Positions 54,309 to 58,707 of a stretch of 64,000 nt of DNA are shown here, piece after piece (the first letter of the stretch is position 1; every line of letters starts with the position of its first letter). The position numbers and the translations under genes are program-made. The stretch lies in assembly GCF_014696105.1 (NCBI RefSeq), contig NZ_JACJPO010000066.1, positions 248,001 to 312,000 of the forward strand. The letters are read 5' to 3'. This DNA comes from Microcoleus sp. FACHB-1515 (GTDB taxonomy: Bacteria; Cyanobacteriota; Cyanobacteriia; Elainellales; Elainellaceae). The notes beneath the pieces were generated by a model. That model did no database searches and was not told the origin of the DNA. It saw only the letters and a list, made by a program, of their open reading frames with translations.

Positions 54309-54570
54309 TGTGTTTTACCTCTTGAGGTGTAGCCGATCGAGCTTCAACTGGCGATCGAGTCGATTTTTCAAACCTAAGTTGATCAAAATTCGCTGCTTGC
54401 AAACCAATCTTCAAATTAAAACATAAAGCTGATTCAAATAATTTAATCGATCGCTAGTGATCTCAGATCTACTGAAAGCAGTAGCAGTCAAGCTCTGTCC
54501 TGAGAGCGATTTGACTGACACACGCAATGCAGTAGGAATAGAGTTGCTAAACCTCAAGGGATTTCATCCT

Positions 54571-54978
54571 ATGAAACTTCATTATTTTACTAAGCCGCTT
54601 TCAACGGTAGGACGCTGGATCGCAAACGCAATGCTTTGCTTGGCCGCGATCGTCCTCCTGTGGCAAGGCGCACTCCCCGCAATGGCCGCAGACAACCCGG
54701 TCGATGCAGCCAACGATAAATATCAGCAAGAAGCAGGTCGCTCTAAAGGCTTCATTGAAGATACCAAAGACTTCGTTCAGCAAGCTGCTAGAGACAATGC
54801 GGCCAAAGTCGATAACGCCACCGATGACGACAGCGCGATCGCTGGCAAAGCCAAGCGTGATGCGGCTCGCATCCAAAAGCGGGCAGAAGAAGATGCCGAT
54901 CGCACTCAAAACGCAGTGGATAGCGCCAGAAATGCCGTTCAGCGCACGGTGGACAGCATCAAAGACGCTTTGGACTAG
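54571..54978 (+). CDS. Secreted small helical protein (CsbD/LEA-like composition)
   Basis: This 135-residue protein has a signal peptide (hydrophobic residues 18-36, cleavage near AMAADN at about 40) and a mature part of alternating charged, Ala-rich amphipathic helices (DFVQQAARDNAAKVDNATDDD, IAGKAKRDAARIQKRAEED). Such composition is seen in stress-related CsbD/LEA-like proteins. Function unknown. ATG 54571 is chosen over the upstream open frame (from TTG 54457) because it starts the signal sequence. A strong terminator follows. Confidence 0.7.
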   Translation: MKLHYFTKPLSTVGRWIANAMLCLAAIVLLWQGALPAMAADNPVDAANDKYQQEAGRSKGFIEDTKDFVQQAARDNAAKVDNATDDDSAIAGKAKRDAARIQKRAEEDADRTQNAVDSARNAVQRTVDSIKDALD

Positions 54979-55108: not shown

Positions 55109-56239
55109 CTACGAATTTTTGGGGATTCGATGTCGCTCTGGAATACCGCGATCGCTGGTGTGGCTTTGCATCTTTTCCAGGTTGAGCTGAAACTGAATCG
55201 TGGCAATGCGCTTCTTTCCAGGCAGTTCTTGAGCAGAAATAACGTATCCTTCCTGCTGCAATTCATCGACCGTCCGCCAAAAAATCTGATTGTTTCGAGA
55301 AGAATTACTTCCCAATAGGTCAAGATTCTTGAACAGATATTGTTTTGAAATGTGCAGATATCCACCGTCCTGCATTGCATCCCACTTCATTCGACTTGCT
55401 AAATAAATTAGCAGTTTGGTTTTGTAGTCGCTCTTTGCATTGCTTCCCAGTTTCTGTGTGATGTCGATGCTGTTGGCAAATAAAACATAATCGCCTGTGC
55501 GTCCCGGCCCTTCAAAAAACTCCAGTGAAACTGTGTAAGCATCTGCAAGTTCATAGGTGTAATCTGCGGCTTTTGCCAGATCGAAATCGCGAGGAACGTT
55601 GTCAATTTCGTAGTCTTTAATTCGCAAAACGCTTTTGATCATCACTTTTGCACCGACACTGTTTCCCTTACGCAACGATTGAGCCAAAACAAGCTCGGTA
55701 CGGTGCAAAGCAACTAGATCGCGATTAAGTTGCGATCGCAATTTCGATGCAAATCCTCCATCTTTCGTGCGCGTGTAGCCCAAACTTTCGAGCAGATCGT
55801 TCGATCGAAAAGAGACGATCGCCCCGTTTCCCTGCTGTGCAGCGAGTCGGTAGAGAAATAGAACGATCGACACCTGGCGCGGATTGAGAAACGTCAGCAA
55901 GGCCATGAAGAGACGCTGTATGCGTCGGTCTTGAATTTTCTCTAGTCCTTTGCTGACGCCTTGATCAGTGCAGGACTGGAAGTCAAGGTCAGCATATTGG
56001 CGCTTGAGTTCTTCCCATTCTTCGGCTGAGAGATTTTCCAGCGGAACGCGCCGCGTCACGGCTACCTCGCTGGGATTGCCCGGATCGGCCTCGACCCGCA
56101 TTTCCAGATAGTAGCCGTCCTCGTCCGATCGCAAAATCGGCAGTTGGACATCCGGATTTTTTAGCGAGGCTCCGGCTCTGGGCAACACCATCAGGAGTTG
56201 GCCGTCAACGGGAAACGTCGGTTCTTCGTGGTTGCTCAC
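55109..56239 (-). CDS. Putative replication initiator-like protein (winged-helix type)
   Basis: This 376-residue soluble protein has two regions that look like winged helices. The first is about 135-215 (RQVSIVLFLYRLAAQQ, FRSNDLLESLGYTRTKDGG, LRSQLNRDLVALHR). The second is about 255-360 (ANSIDITQKLGSNAKSDYK, LASRMKWD, KNLDLLGSNSSRNNQIFWRTVDELQQEGYV). Two tandem winged helices are the layout of plasmid initiators that bind iterons. Directly upstream lie at least seven copies of an 18-base repeat. The call is from architecture and context, not from a recognised family motif; a transcriptional regulator binding the same repeats is the main alternative. Confidence 0.6.
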   Translation of the reverse strand: MSNHEEPTFPVDGQLLMVLPRAGASLKNPDVQLPILRSDEDGYYLEMRVEADPGNPSEVAVTRRVPLENLSAEEWEELKRQYADLDFQSCTDQGVSKGLEKIQDRRIQRLFMALLTFLNPRQVSIVLFLYRLAAQQGNGAIVSFRSNDLLESLGYTRTKDGGFASKLRSQLNRDLVALHRTELVLAQSLRKGNSVGAKVMIKSVLRIKDYEIDNVPRDFDLAKAADYTYELADAYTVSLEFFEGPGRTGDYVLFANSIDITQKLGSNAKSDYKTKLLIYLASRMKWDAMQDGGYLHISKQYLFKNLDLLGSNSSRNNQIFWRTVDELQQEGYVISAQELPGKKRIATIQFQLNLEKMQSHTSDRGIPERHRIPKNS

Positions 56240-56920
56240 AGGACAAAACTCTCGATCGAGCAGATGGGTAGGAGGAATTGTACCGCTAGATGCCCCAGAT
56301 CGATCCGATCTAGCTGCGCTATCTATAGCGTCTTATTAAGCCTGTAATTTTCAAAACGCTATATCTGGAAGTCCTGACTATAACTCCCGCGTATGTTTTT
56401 GCCAAGATCGCCTGTAACTTTGGCGTCGGATTTGCCCTGTAACTCCCGCGTATGAACAGACGATCGCGCTGTAACTCCCGCGTATGCTTTTGGGCAGATT
56501 TTTCGATCGCTCGATCGTTCGCTAGTGATAGATCAGTCCTGTAACTCCCGCGTATGGTTTGCAGGTTTGGCTGTAACTCCCGCGTACAGATTTGTCCTGT
56601 AACTCCCGCGTATGGTCTAGCTATAACTCCGGCGGATCTGTCGATCGACCCCCATTGAACCTGCCAAACATTGGTGCTAACTTCTGTGCATCAAAGGTTC
56701 GGTTACAAGTTTCGGTTACGTCGATTACCGCTCAAATCAAACAGCCCAATAAAAAACCCCGCCGCCTCCCTACCACAGTCAGCGAAAGGGTTTGAGTCCA
56801 TCACATTGCCCCAGCATCAGCCGGGGAACGGATTTTTATGCACAAAAAGTTTAGCATCGATCGCGGCGTTGCGTCGCCCAATTTCTGCTGTCGTCCGCAC
56901 TTCTGCTTGGAGGCAAATCC
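56240..56920. other. Putative origin/regulatory region between initiator-like and primase genes
   Basis: These 681 bp lie between divergent genes. They contain the repeat array (given separately). On the initiator side, minus-strand AT-rich sequence (TTGAAA at 56355-56350, TATAGA further down) could be the initiator promoter. A short inverted pair AGCG/CGCT brackets it (56327-56359). The right part (56640-56920) has runs such as CAATAAAAAACCCCGCCGCC near 56748-56767. No DnaA-box consensus was noticed. Confidence 0.5.
56378..56638 (+). repeat. Iteron-like array, seven clear copies of an 18-bp repeat
   Basis: Consensus CTGTAACTCCCGCGTATG. Copies start at 56378 (CTATAAC variant), 56437, 56469, 56539, 56571 (ends CGTACA), 56597 and 56621 (CTATAACTCCGGCGGATC). 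A degenerate copy starts at 56412 (CTGTAACTTTGGCGTCGG). All are on the plus strand. Start-to-start spacing is 34, 25, 32, 70, 32, 26 and 24 bases. Arrays of this kind next to an initiator gene are the hallmark of plasmid origins; they could also be a multi-site operator. Confidence 0.85.
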
Positions 56921-58243
56921 ATGATTTGTCTTCCATCTCCCCCCCTTCGCTTCGTCGAGGAATCTGACGAATTTCTTGCTTTATTTCCGCAACGTTTCGA
57001 TTTTATTTACGCCGATCATTCGCAGCCTGACTGTAAACCCAACTGGCGAACTGAAAGCCGCTATCCGCTCAGCGATCGCCAGATTCAGCAGGGAAACTTG
57101 CTTTATGGTGTCCGCTTCGGCTCCACGACGCGCTACTGCCTGCTGGATATTGACATCGCCAGCCACTACCATCCGCGCCAAGACCCGTTTGCGATCGGAC
57201 GAATTATGGCGGCACTAGAGCGAATTGGTTTGGTGAGTGCGATCGCCTGCACGTCTAGCTATAGCGGCGGCATTCACCTGTATTTACCGTTTGCAAACGA
57301 GCAGCGATCGTGGCAGGTGGCGATCGTGCTGTCGAGTCTGCTAGAAGCAGCGGGCTTCCGGCTCAGGGCTGGACAGCTTGAGGTTTTTCCCAATCGCCGT
57401 CCCTACACTACCGATAGCGTTCCACGCCTGTATCACGCGCATCGTTTACCGCTACAGGTCGGCTCCAATTTACTGAATTCGGATTTGCAGCCGATTTGGA
57501 GCGACCGCGCCAGCTTCGTTCGCCAGTGGCGATGTGCCGAACAGCGCAATGAAATTGATGTGTGCCTGTTCGATCAGCTGATGCAGAAAAACCGCCAGAA
57601 GCGCTATCGCGTTTCGCGGCGGGCAGAGCAGTTTTTGCAAGACCTCAACACCGAAATTGATCCGGGCTGGACAGATAGCGGACAAACGAATCATTTACTC
57701 GGCAGAATTGCCATGCGGAGCTATATTTTTAATCACGTTTTGTCAGGTGGTGAACCGCTGATCGGGCAAGCGCTGATCGATAACATTGTGGCGACGGCGC
57801 GATCGCTTCCCGGTTTCGCGCAGTGGTGTCAGCATCAGCATGAAATTGGCGATCGTGCCGCAGAGTGGGCAAGATGCATCGAAAACAGTCCGTACTACCA
57901 CTACGGTTTGCCCAAGCAGCCGAAAGCGGAAGAGGCAGCAGACGGAATGGTTGTGCAGCCCAATCCTCGCGAAGTCAAGCGAGACACTTGGAACCGCAAG
58001 CAGTCTAAAGACGCTCAAGCTCGCATTCAAAATGCAATGACCGATTTGATTGCAAAGAACGCTCTGCCCAATGCAATTACTGCTCGCTTTCAAGCCTTAA
58101 CGCAATACGGCATCAGCGGCAGTTCACTTTATCGCTATCGGCAGCTTTGGCATCCTGATCATCAGGAACAAGCCGCTCCATCAAGCCTTGTCGTTCTAAA
58201 ATCTGGCGAATCCGCTGACTTGCCGACTCGAAATGTCAGCTAG
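56921..58243 (+). CDS. Archaeo-eukaryotic-type primase (AEP) domain protein
   Basis: This 440-residue protein has an AEP active-site triad readable by eye: CLLDIDIASHYHP with Asp76/Asp78, SYSGGIHLYLPF with His119, and GQLEVFPNRR with Glu154. This order (hDhD, SxH-like, E/D-x-FP) is shared by AEP primase-polymerases of mobile elements and the TOTE type. Residues after about 220 contain helical and basic segments (QKNRQKRYRVSRRAEQFL, then KRDTWNRKQSKDAQARIQNAM), probably DNA binding. It would make primers or extend DNA. It diverges from the initiator-like gene across the iteron-like array, suggesting a shared replication role. I consider the AEP fold well supported and the cellular role inferred. 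Confidence 0.75.
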   Translation: MICLPSPPLRFVEESDEFLALFPQRFDFIYADHSQPDCKPNWRTESRYPLSDRQIQQGNLLYGVRFGSTTRYCLLDIDIASHYHPRQDPFAIGRIMAALERIGLVSAIACTSSYSGGIHLYLPFANEQRSWQVAIVLSSLLEAAGFRLRAGQLEVFPNRRPYTTDSVPRLYHAHRLPLQVGSNLLNSDLQPIWSDRASFVRQWRCAEQRNEIDVCLFDQLMQKNRQKRYRVSRRAEQFLQDLNTEIDPGWTDSGQTNHLLGRIAMRSYIFNHVLSGGEPLIGQALIDNIVATARSLPGFAQWCQHQHEIGDRAAEWARCIENSPYYHYGLPKQPKAEEAADGMVVQPNPREVKRDTWNRKQSKDAQARIQNAMTDLIAKNALPNAITARFQALTQYGISGSSLYRYRQLWHPDHQEQAAPSSLVVLKSGESADLPTRNVS

Positions 58244-58368
58244 AAAATTTATTGCAGCATGGTTCAAGAGCAGTTCAATTGCTTTGAACGTGGAGCAGTT
58301 CAACGAATGAAAACGCTGTTTTTGCCGTTTCATTGGAGATACGATCGCAACTATGCAGAAGCTTTTTA

Positions 58369-58707
58369 ATGGGGGTCAGCCATGCAAAACACTTGTTGCT
58401 GTGGCTACTGACTGGCTTGCTGTTTATCGGCTTGAGTCTTCCACTAATTCTGAAGAAAGTGCCGCCCAATCGCTGGTATGGATTTCGAGTTGCCAAGACT
58501 TTTTCAAGCGAATTGATTTGGTATGCTGCAAATCGAGCCGCAGGCTATGGCCTGCTGGGAGTGGGCGTTGCGATCGCCCTAACTGCTGCTGCCACAAACC
58601 AGCTTACGCATTCAGCCGAAGCAGCGAATGCAATTAACCTGACGGTTTTTGGTGTTGCTTTGACGATCGCGGTCATCCACAGCTTCTCGACGCTCAAGCG
58701 GCTCTAG
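58369..58707 (+). CDS. SdpI-like/DUF membrane protein
   Basis: This 112-residue protein has three hydrophobic segments (about 7-27, 54-75 and 83-104). The soluble loop VPPNRWYGFRVAKTFSSELIWYAANRAAG is the conserved feature of SdpI/YhfL-like membrane proteins, some of which act in immunity to SDP-type toxins in Firmicutes; in cyanobacteria the function is unknown. ATG 58369 is chosen over an in-frame upstream start. Confidence 0.75.
   Translation: MGVSHAKHLLLWLLTGLLFIGLSLPLILKKVPPNRWYGFRVAKTFSSELIWYAANRAAGYGLLGVGVAIALTAAATNQLTHSAEAANAINLTVFGVALTIAVIHSFSTLKRL

Follow-up and report, generated by a model that had tools for sequence, protein, structure and literature searches.

A putative iteron replicon of plasmid type, from an undescribed cyanobacterial family, among core chromosomal genes of Microcoleus sp. 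FACHB-1515

Introduction

RepE of mini-F and pi of R6K are replication initiators with tandem winged helices and a direct-repeat (iteron) array beside their genes, while RctB is the initiator of Vibrio chromosome 2 and drives a replicon with core genes. Among primases, RSF1010 RepB' and that of pRN1 serve plasmid priming. The element considered here is a two-gene module in a 64,000-nucleotide stretch of Microcoleus sp. FACHB-1515 (the window), which spans positions 248001-312000 of a 396-kb contig with core genes (C63) in a draft genome of 5.79 Mb and 96 contigs (G000). The module consists of a putative initiator of 376 amino acids with tandem winged helices (WH), a primase-like protein of 440 amino acids (AEP) and the gap between their genes. 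The probability that it is a plasmid-type iteron replicon, belonging to an undescribed cyanobacterial family, residing among core chromosomal genes and kept by selection, is put at roughly three in four (0.77).

The cyanobacterial replication proteins CyRepA (PMC10079941) and CyRepX (PMC10899382) have been described. The CyRepA2 region is reported to give autonomous replication (PMC10079941), and a term search of the main texts of both papers found neither 'winged' nor 'iteron'. No description of a WH-iteron-AEP module was found in the literature searched by titles and abstract openings, from which subscription papers and preprints mostly fell outside.

Layout of the module and its iteron array

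The module and its array comprise the following features, all eight iterons being taken from the family-consensus scan.

55109-56239, minus strand: WH, tandem winged-helix protein and putative replication initiator, 376 amino acids, GTG start (open reading frame list and predicted structure)
56240-56920, no strand: putative origin region, the 681-bp gap between WH and AEP (open reading frame ends and iteron scan)
56378-56396, plus strand: iteron 1
56412-56430, plus strand: iteron 2, degenerate, with 5 mismatches to the consensus
56437-56455, plus strand: iteron 3
56469-56487, plus strand: iteron 4
56539-56557, plus strand: iteron 7 of the family grid
56571-56589, plus strand: iteron 8 of the grid
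56597-56615, plus strand: iteron 9 of the grid
56621-56639, plus strand: iteron 10 of the grid, with 4 mismatches to the consensus
56673-56681, plus strand: conserved GGTGCTAAC element 3' of the array, from an alignment of 34 gaps with an AEP partner; possibly an AEP promoter or a half-iteron
56921-58243, plus strand: AEP, primase/PrimPol-like partner, 440 amino acids (alignment and predicted fold)

The earlier note on this DNA had proposed a divergent WH-AEP pair with an iteron-like array between the genes, and this arrangement is confirmed by open reading frame (ORF) coordinates, which place the two genes pointing apart from the gap, by shuffled controls and by a genome scan. The sequence TAACTCCCGCGTA occurs in six exact copies in the gap, whereas 1000 dinucleotide-preserving shuffles of the gap gave at most two copies of any 13-mer (one in 997 shuffles, two in 3). 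Genome-wide, all six exact places of TAACTCCCGCGTA fall in the gap and two places with one mismatch lie elsewhere; the reversed control pattern, at up to one mismatch, has 12 places, above the two for TAACTCCCGCGTA. The family-consensus scan, in which up to 6 of 19 positions could mismatch, recovers eight iterons of 19 nt on one strand against 0.13 expected from shuffles, so that same-strand direct repeats beyond shuffle expectation adjoin the putative initiator gene. Sites 5 and 6 of the ten-site grid described below are gone in both the window and its congener (G292), and the spacing after iteron 4 is 70 rather than ~125 bp; a deletion of ~56 bp common to the two genomes would account for this. 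All eight iteron positions and spacings are identical between them. In the interval from the array to AEP, a 13-bp tandem repeat (AAGGTTCGGTTAC / AAGTTTCGGTTAC) lies at 56694-56719 and is unconserved in the 34-gap alignment.

Predicted initiator fold of WH

Neither WH nor AEP has a Pfam or NCBIfam match above cut-off or a curated family in PHROGs, and sequence searches of the PDB with alignments of the two proteins gave nothing convincing. The winged-helix and AEP assignments, made by eye in the earlier note, are borne out by predicted structures rather than by these family databases. An AlphaFold2 model of WH built from a 35-sequence alignment (pLDDT 83.9, pTM 0.85) has two winged-helix domains in the arrangement of initiators. 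Foldseek returned three matches at E <= 0.001, all to domains 2-3 of RctB (best E 2.3e-6), with modest TM-scores of 0.41-0.42 of the query (0.42/0.56 for the best match). VIA-align, which re-examined the candidates supplied by Foldseek, gave Z-scores of 13.2 and 12.2 for RctB (root-mean-square deviation 5.1 over 251 residues), ~10-11 for RepE, 10.0 for pi and 7.0 for dimeric RepE, with unrelated chains starting at 6.3.

On this model, the WH fold is that of replication initiators, though folds do not prove function, and WH is a putative member of a cyanobacterial initiator family absent from curated lists; because no Pfam or NCBIfam match exceeds its cut-off, it is filed as having the same fold but lying outside the curated Rep families. 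RctB is its closest fold in the PDB, but differs in the low identity (~13%) without a convincing sequence match, in its location and in the priming partner that adjoins WH in the window. RepE and pi share with WH the tandem winged helices (Z ~10-11 over ~200 residues) and the direct-repeat array beside the gene; in contrast to them, WH lacks a Pfam match and has a divergent priming partner, and its array has no DnaA-box cluster. Relatives of WH were found in no phage records or viral contigs.

The primase-like partner

The model of AEP (pLDDT 82, pTM 0.55) matches, among others, the CRISPR-associated Prim-Pol CAPP (E 3.2e-8) and the RSF1010 RepB' primase (E 4.1e-5), and weakly the pRN1 primase (E 0.007). 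It differs from these three in having no Pfam or NCBIfam match above cut-off; the weak matches are one PHROG primase (E 0.00089) and the NCBIfam model PrimPol_Msp (E 0.04, far below its cut-off). In an alignment of 30 rows, D76 and D78 are nearly invariant and H119 is invariant, and this D-x-D and H are presumably the catalytic motif of the AEP superfamily. The protein therefore has both the expected residues, by alignment, and the expected fold, by predicted structure. Pfam and NCBIfam give no match to CyRepA1 or DUF3854 in the AEP of the window, which has an AEP-like fold instead. No AEP relatives were found in phage records, the only viral collection searched for this protein.

Iteron type follows WH while the partner changes

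Conserved synteny of the two genes with the repeats, which the earlier note had suggested surveying across cyanobacteria, recurs in relatives. A scan of genome contigs found 61 loci in relatives, and the 63 WH ORFs obtained with the window and a further copy from its own genome form a single cluster. WH is divergent from a partner in 56/61 loci, the partner being an AEP in 37 and a CyRepA1-cluster protein in 19; the two of these 19 that were tested match NF042913 and DUF3854 and lie far above the cut-off of the CyRepA1 model. CyRepA1 thus resembles the present system as a divergent WH partner in 19/61 relatives and differs in that an AEP takes this position in the window. Four of the five loci without a visible partner end at a contig end, and one (L076) has none. 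By distribution, WH occurs in six of 292 genomes of a phylum sample and in 20 of 40 close relatives, the genome of the window counting in both, and 18 of the family's 24 other genomes have it. A profile search of the phylum sample found the same six as the single-protein search.

Iteron matches over the 61 loci number 442 forward and 0 reverse, and all 37 AEP loci have at least five. Fifty-nine gaps measure 300 bp or more; 50 of them hold four or more iterons and 56 at least two, L099 and L107 hold one and L076 none; shuffled gaps average 0 to 0.17 matches. The absolute counts lean towards the surveyed loci, since consensus and grid were chosen after the loci had been inspected. Spacings across the family cluster at 24, 25-26, 31-32, 34 and 73-75 bp, and the full ten-site grid (34-25-31-25-74-25-31-25-24, within 1.6 bp) is found in 19/59 gaps, of which 14 have an AEP partner, three a CyRepA1 partner and two a partner that is cut.

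The iteron types (GTAAC in 48 rows, ATCAC in 7 and GCAAC in 2) were placed on a quick WH tree of 66 rows. They require two changes (57 rows, nine with another or no type being dropped), and ATCAC and GCAAC each form one clade with support of 100, whereas partner type requires at least ten changes (62 rows, four with no partner seen being dropped). The long branches of L141, L142, L143 and L104 make parts of this tree unsure. Because iteron type follows the WH tree and the partner does not, WH probably reads the iterons while its priming partners are swapped.

Further modules were observed in single genomes. The draft of Nodosilinea sp. LEGE 06152 holds two loci (L077 and L106) that share an identical WH and one iteron type, either as two replicons or as an assembly duplicate. 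The genome of the window itself has a second WH-iteron-AEP module of the ATCAC type (L109, C75:25461-28708), with a further AEP at C75:34021; C75 is likely, not proven, to be a plasmid, and the flank test described below is not valid for it since it belongs to the same genome. Also in this genome, on C88, locus L111 (1850-6207) encodes a 544-amino acid putative initiator, a differing repeat array (9-11 copies of TTGTACTCA..AATAGCTTTTACC) and an AEP relative, all with the same orientation. The C-terminal end of the 544-amino acid protein appears XRE-like by eye, and L111 looks like a second initiator class sharing the same primase family.

Plasmid homes of the relatives

WH modules are present on plasmid records, with WH found on six of 72,556 records in PLSDB, four of them at 66-79% identity. 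Three of these four close copies hold 6-10 consensus iterons (L138 nine, L139 six, L140 ten) in the divergent layout of the window; L141 and L143 hold none and L142 one. In Chroococcidiopsis sp. CCNUC1, Allocoleopsis and C. thermalis the plasmid-borne partner is a DUF3987 protein, and on a Chondrocystis plasmid it is a CyRepA1 protein. On the Chroococcidiopsis plasmid of L138 (2155-5010) the DUF3987 partner carries a fused N-terminal domain of a DnaB-like helicase, and on that of L142 (4588-5862) an IscB gene adjoins a distant WH relative. AEP relatives occur on 66 plasmid records, including a 13-kb L. boryana plasmid with ParA, ParB, three transposase-related genes and a hypothetical gene (its gene table being incomplete), where the region upstream of the AEP relative showed no repeats. 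ParA or ParB relatives lie in 8/61 loci by tblastn.

Flanking ORFs were compared at >=60% identity with a reference made of C63, part of C32, C58 and C9. In 19 relatives (L188-L206), after removal of two module genes per locus, 0/211 ORFs beside the module match, against 8/113 control ORFs near hemF or dnaB with the anchors excluded (hand count; p 0.0002). The difference persists without one dnaB-adjoining ORF (7/112, p 0.0005) and with only C63 and C58 matches counted (6/113, p 0.0016). In G314, which has two module copies, the 292-kb contig has one match among 226 ORFs and the 1.55-Mb contig 0/50 near the module, 1/11 at the contig start and 2/284 elsewhere. Because of these counts most WH modules of the relatives look plasmid-borne, a statistical statement under which some may be chromosomal. 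The 1.55-Mb contig (C1, L198), with few main-chromosome orthologs and with a ParB relative near its module, is a candidate megaplasmid or chromid using the WH replicon family.

Core-gene neighbourhood in two species

The earlier note placed the module near hemF, mrp, rodA and the pst operon. The expected Pfam domains were found in hemF, mrp, rodA and a PstS-like binding protein; the remaining pst genes have names given by eye from the ORF list. Two further neighbours were recorded.

54457-54978, plus strand: hypothetical 173-amino acid protein without a Pfam match, adjoining WH in window and congener; at most a possible part of the replicon
58333-58707: SdpI gene between AEP and STAS, seen in the window only

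Across hemF stretches of other genera, hemF, mrp and rodA lie together as in the window in 10/19, and WH or AEP occurs in none of the 19. In the single congener examined (G292, the metagenome-assembled genome behind L047), the module and the 173-amino acid gene adjoin rplI-dnaB; in the genome of the window the corresponding genes lie on C32 next to a tRNA-His gene. STAS in G292 is joined to this same tRNA-His side. One inversion with breakpoints 3' of AEP and of dnaB would mostly explain both junctions, and the two being reciprocal argues against a chimeric contig. The inversion leaves unexplained the SdpI gene, which is absent from both congener contigs, and the other side of the module, where G292 runs into material found on C9 in the genome of the window. 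The junctions of window and G292 nonetheless mean that the module is joined to core genes in two independent drafts.

No integrase was found among the ten module neighbours scanned, and the window carries no tRNA that could point to tRNA-linked integration; the second breakpoint of the inversion does have a tRNA-His, but this occurs in 0/22 dnaB or hemF stretches of relatives. Foreign composition was considered and rejected, the module being ordinary in that 57% of windows deviate equally or more. Contig-end overlap is absent for C63, C75, C88, C6 and C58, so their circularity is without evidence.

Selection on the module

Between window and G292, at dS ~0.75, the ratio of non-synonymous to synonymous divergence (dN/dS) of WH is 0.046 and falls to 0.018 once 22 codons seemingly frameshifted in G292 are removed. 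The same pair gives 0.024 for dnaB, 0.018 for mrp, 0.048 for rplI, 0.065 for hemF and 0.09 for p183, and 0.185 for the 173-amino acid gene. For AEP, values are 0.042 in the first part (158 codons) and 0.131 in the second (200 codons), the middle piece being omitted because G292 is broken there. The iterons, taken as 16 nt each, are identical at 122/128 sites, compared with 138/162 in the array spacers (p 0.006) and 345/391 in the remaining gap (p 0.018 versus iterons, with 15 gapped sites scored as mismatches). These comparisons support purifying selection on WH and the view that the module is more than a dead relic.

Relation to the DnaA-dependent origin

The presence of dnaA in a cyanobacterium does not imply that the gene is required, and how several cyanobacteria begin to copy their chromosome without DnaA, at one site or at many, is an open question (PMC7198777). 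In S. elongatus mutants lacking dnaA, initiation moved to the origin of a plasmid integrated into the chromosome (PMC7198777, citing Ohbayashi 2016). The case here differs in that those were laboratory mutants without dnaA, whereas the module is found in two species and the genome of the window keeps dnaA.

That genome has a single Bac_DnaA match, the dnaA gene on C58. A set of five TTWTCCACA boxes, with starts at C3:6204-6381, lies just before dnaN (identified by Pfam); paired DnaA boxes number five genome-wide against 0 for the reversed control. The usual initiation kit thus seems present. Another tandem cluster of four DnaA boxes, counted among these pairs, lies between a GMP synthase gene and a 1049-amino acid ORF (L303 9894-9976; C30:95894-95976). 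The earlier note had offered a DnaA-independent chromosomal origin as one of two readings, to be sought by an inflection in GC skew. No inflection occurs at the module on the 396-kb contig of this draft, where the skew difference is ordinary (as large at 72/356, 114/296 and 105/216 positions for 20, 50 and 90 kb), and most cyanobacterial skews are irregular (PMC7198777). With dnaA present, five boxes beside dnaN and no skew shift, such an origin is not shown, and the module as sole DnaA-independent origin is not supported.

Weighing the readings

The other reading of the earlier note, an integrated replicon, is well supported by the initiator fold, the tracking of the WH tree by iteron type, the plasmid records and the core neighbours in two species. 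In such a replicon, WH would attach to the iteron array, as do RepE, pi and RctB to their own iterons, and open DNA nearby; AEP would lay primers, a role that a CyRepA1 or DUF3987 protein may take in relatives, and host DnaB and DNA polymerase III would then elongate.

Several observations weigh against it. The gap has a single exact TTWTNCACA (at 56836, with a counterpart in the congener) rather than a DnaA-box cluster, and none of its stretches is strongly A+T-rich, the A+T content of 50-bp windows staying within 38-66%. Two of the ten grid iterons are gone and two more are degenerate, and C63, in a draft genome, has no GC skew shift at the module. The aligned core of AEP is complete but lacks the variable C-terminal tail of its relatives, and the G292 draft reads AEP in three frames, through sequencing error or decay. 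G292 is itself a low-coverage assembly (82% complete, coverage 1.67), and the iteron-spacer contrast comes from a single species pair. Among relatives, 8/19 CyRepA1 loci carry fewer than four consensus iterons, L076 lacks both partner and iterons, the iteron-type argument depends on only two type changes, and the scan consensus contains GTAAC, so that rows with one to three matches were possibly over-called as that type. The flank test is also weaker in a wider set (L048-L107), with 7/624 ORFs matching (7/504 without module genes), still below control (p 0.002).

Whether the replicon acts within the chromosome is a separate matter. It is conceivable, at clearly less than even odds, that the module fires there as an auxiliary or conditional origin beside dnaA-oriC. 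That it works as a second origin for the main chromosome, with an RctB-like initiator and an AEP primase, DnaA-independent in a lineage that keeps dnaA-oriC, is a doubtful proposition.

Among the rivals to a selected replicon, an incompatibility device in the chromosome, whose array and initiator would titrate or handcuff plasmids arriving with the same iteron type, is improbable. It would retain WH and iterons without any need for firing, and G000 and G314 each hold two module copies of differing type, GTAAC and ATCAC, but ordinary plasmid compatibility alone explains the type difference. AEP would be superfluous in such a device, yet its first part is under selection, and L077 and L106 share one type and an identical WH within one Nodosilinea draft, whether as two replicons or through a duplicated or split assembly.

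Comparably improbable is a decaying, functionless remnant of an integrated plasmid. The two deleted and two degenerate iterons, the missing AEP tail, the broken AEP of G292 and the gap without an A+T-rich stretch would all fit decay; on the other hand, the dN/dS of WH is as low as that of dnaB and mrp at considerable divergence, that of the first part of AEP is also low, the iterons are kept better than their spacers, and eight positions with their spacings are common to both species.

A domesticated transcription regulator, with the iterons merely operators of divergent promoters, is very unlikely. The array does sit between two divergent genes, and iteron initiators usually autoregulate, but the full ten-site grid recurs with both partner types, the same arrangement stands on the plasmids of L138-L140, and the predicted WH fold is that of an initiator.

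Least probable of all is that C63 is a secondary chromosome (chromid) with the module as its own origin: RctB is the best fold match, C63 is unplaceable because the genome is a draft, and the DnaA-box cluster with dnaN lies on a different contig (C3), but G294 holds hemF-mrp-rodA and dnaB on one 5.8-Mb contig and a single inversion explains the joining of C63 and C32 material in the congener, even if a translocation between replicons would look alike.

Implications

The favoured reading, an integrated plasmid-type replicon kept by selection, concerns both the biotechnology and the evolution of cyanobacterial replication. An initiator family missing from curated lists, whose ten-site array is regular and whose priming partners are interchangeable, would be useful for replicon typing and for vectors of filamentous cyanobacteria. 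Since the module is complete, lies among core genes and is seemingly selected, these filamentous cyanobacteria may have a second way to start copying their chromosome. A selected plasmid-type origin beside an apparently intact dnaA-oriC is a candidate route by which a lineage might capture a plasmid origin and later lose its dependence on DnaA, and the module, if it did prove to be a second origin, would be a natural intermediate between the DnaA-dependent and DnaA-independent chromosomes of cyanobacteria.

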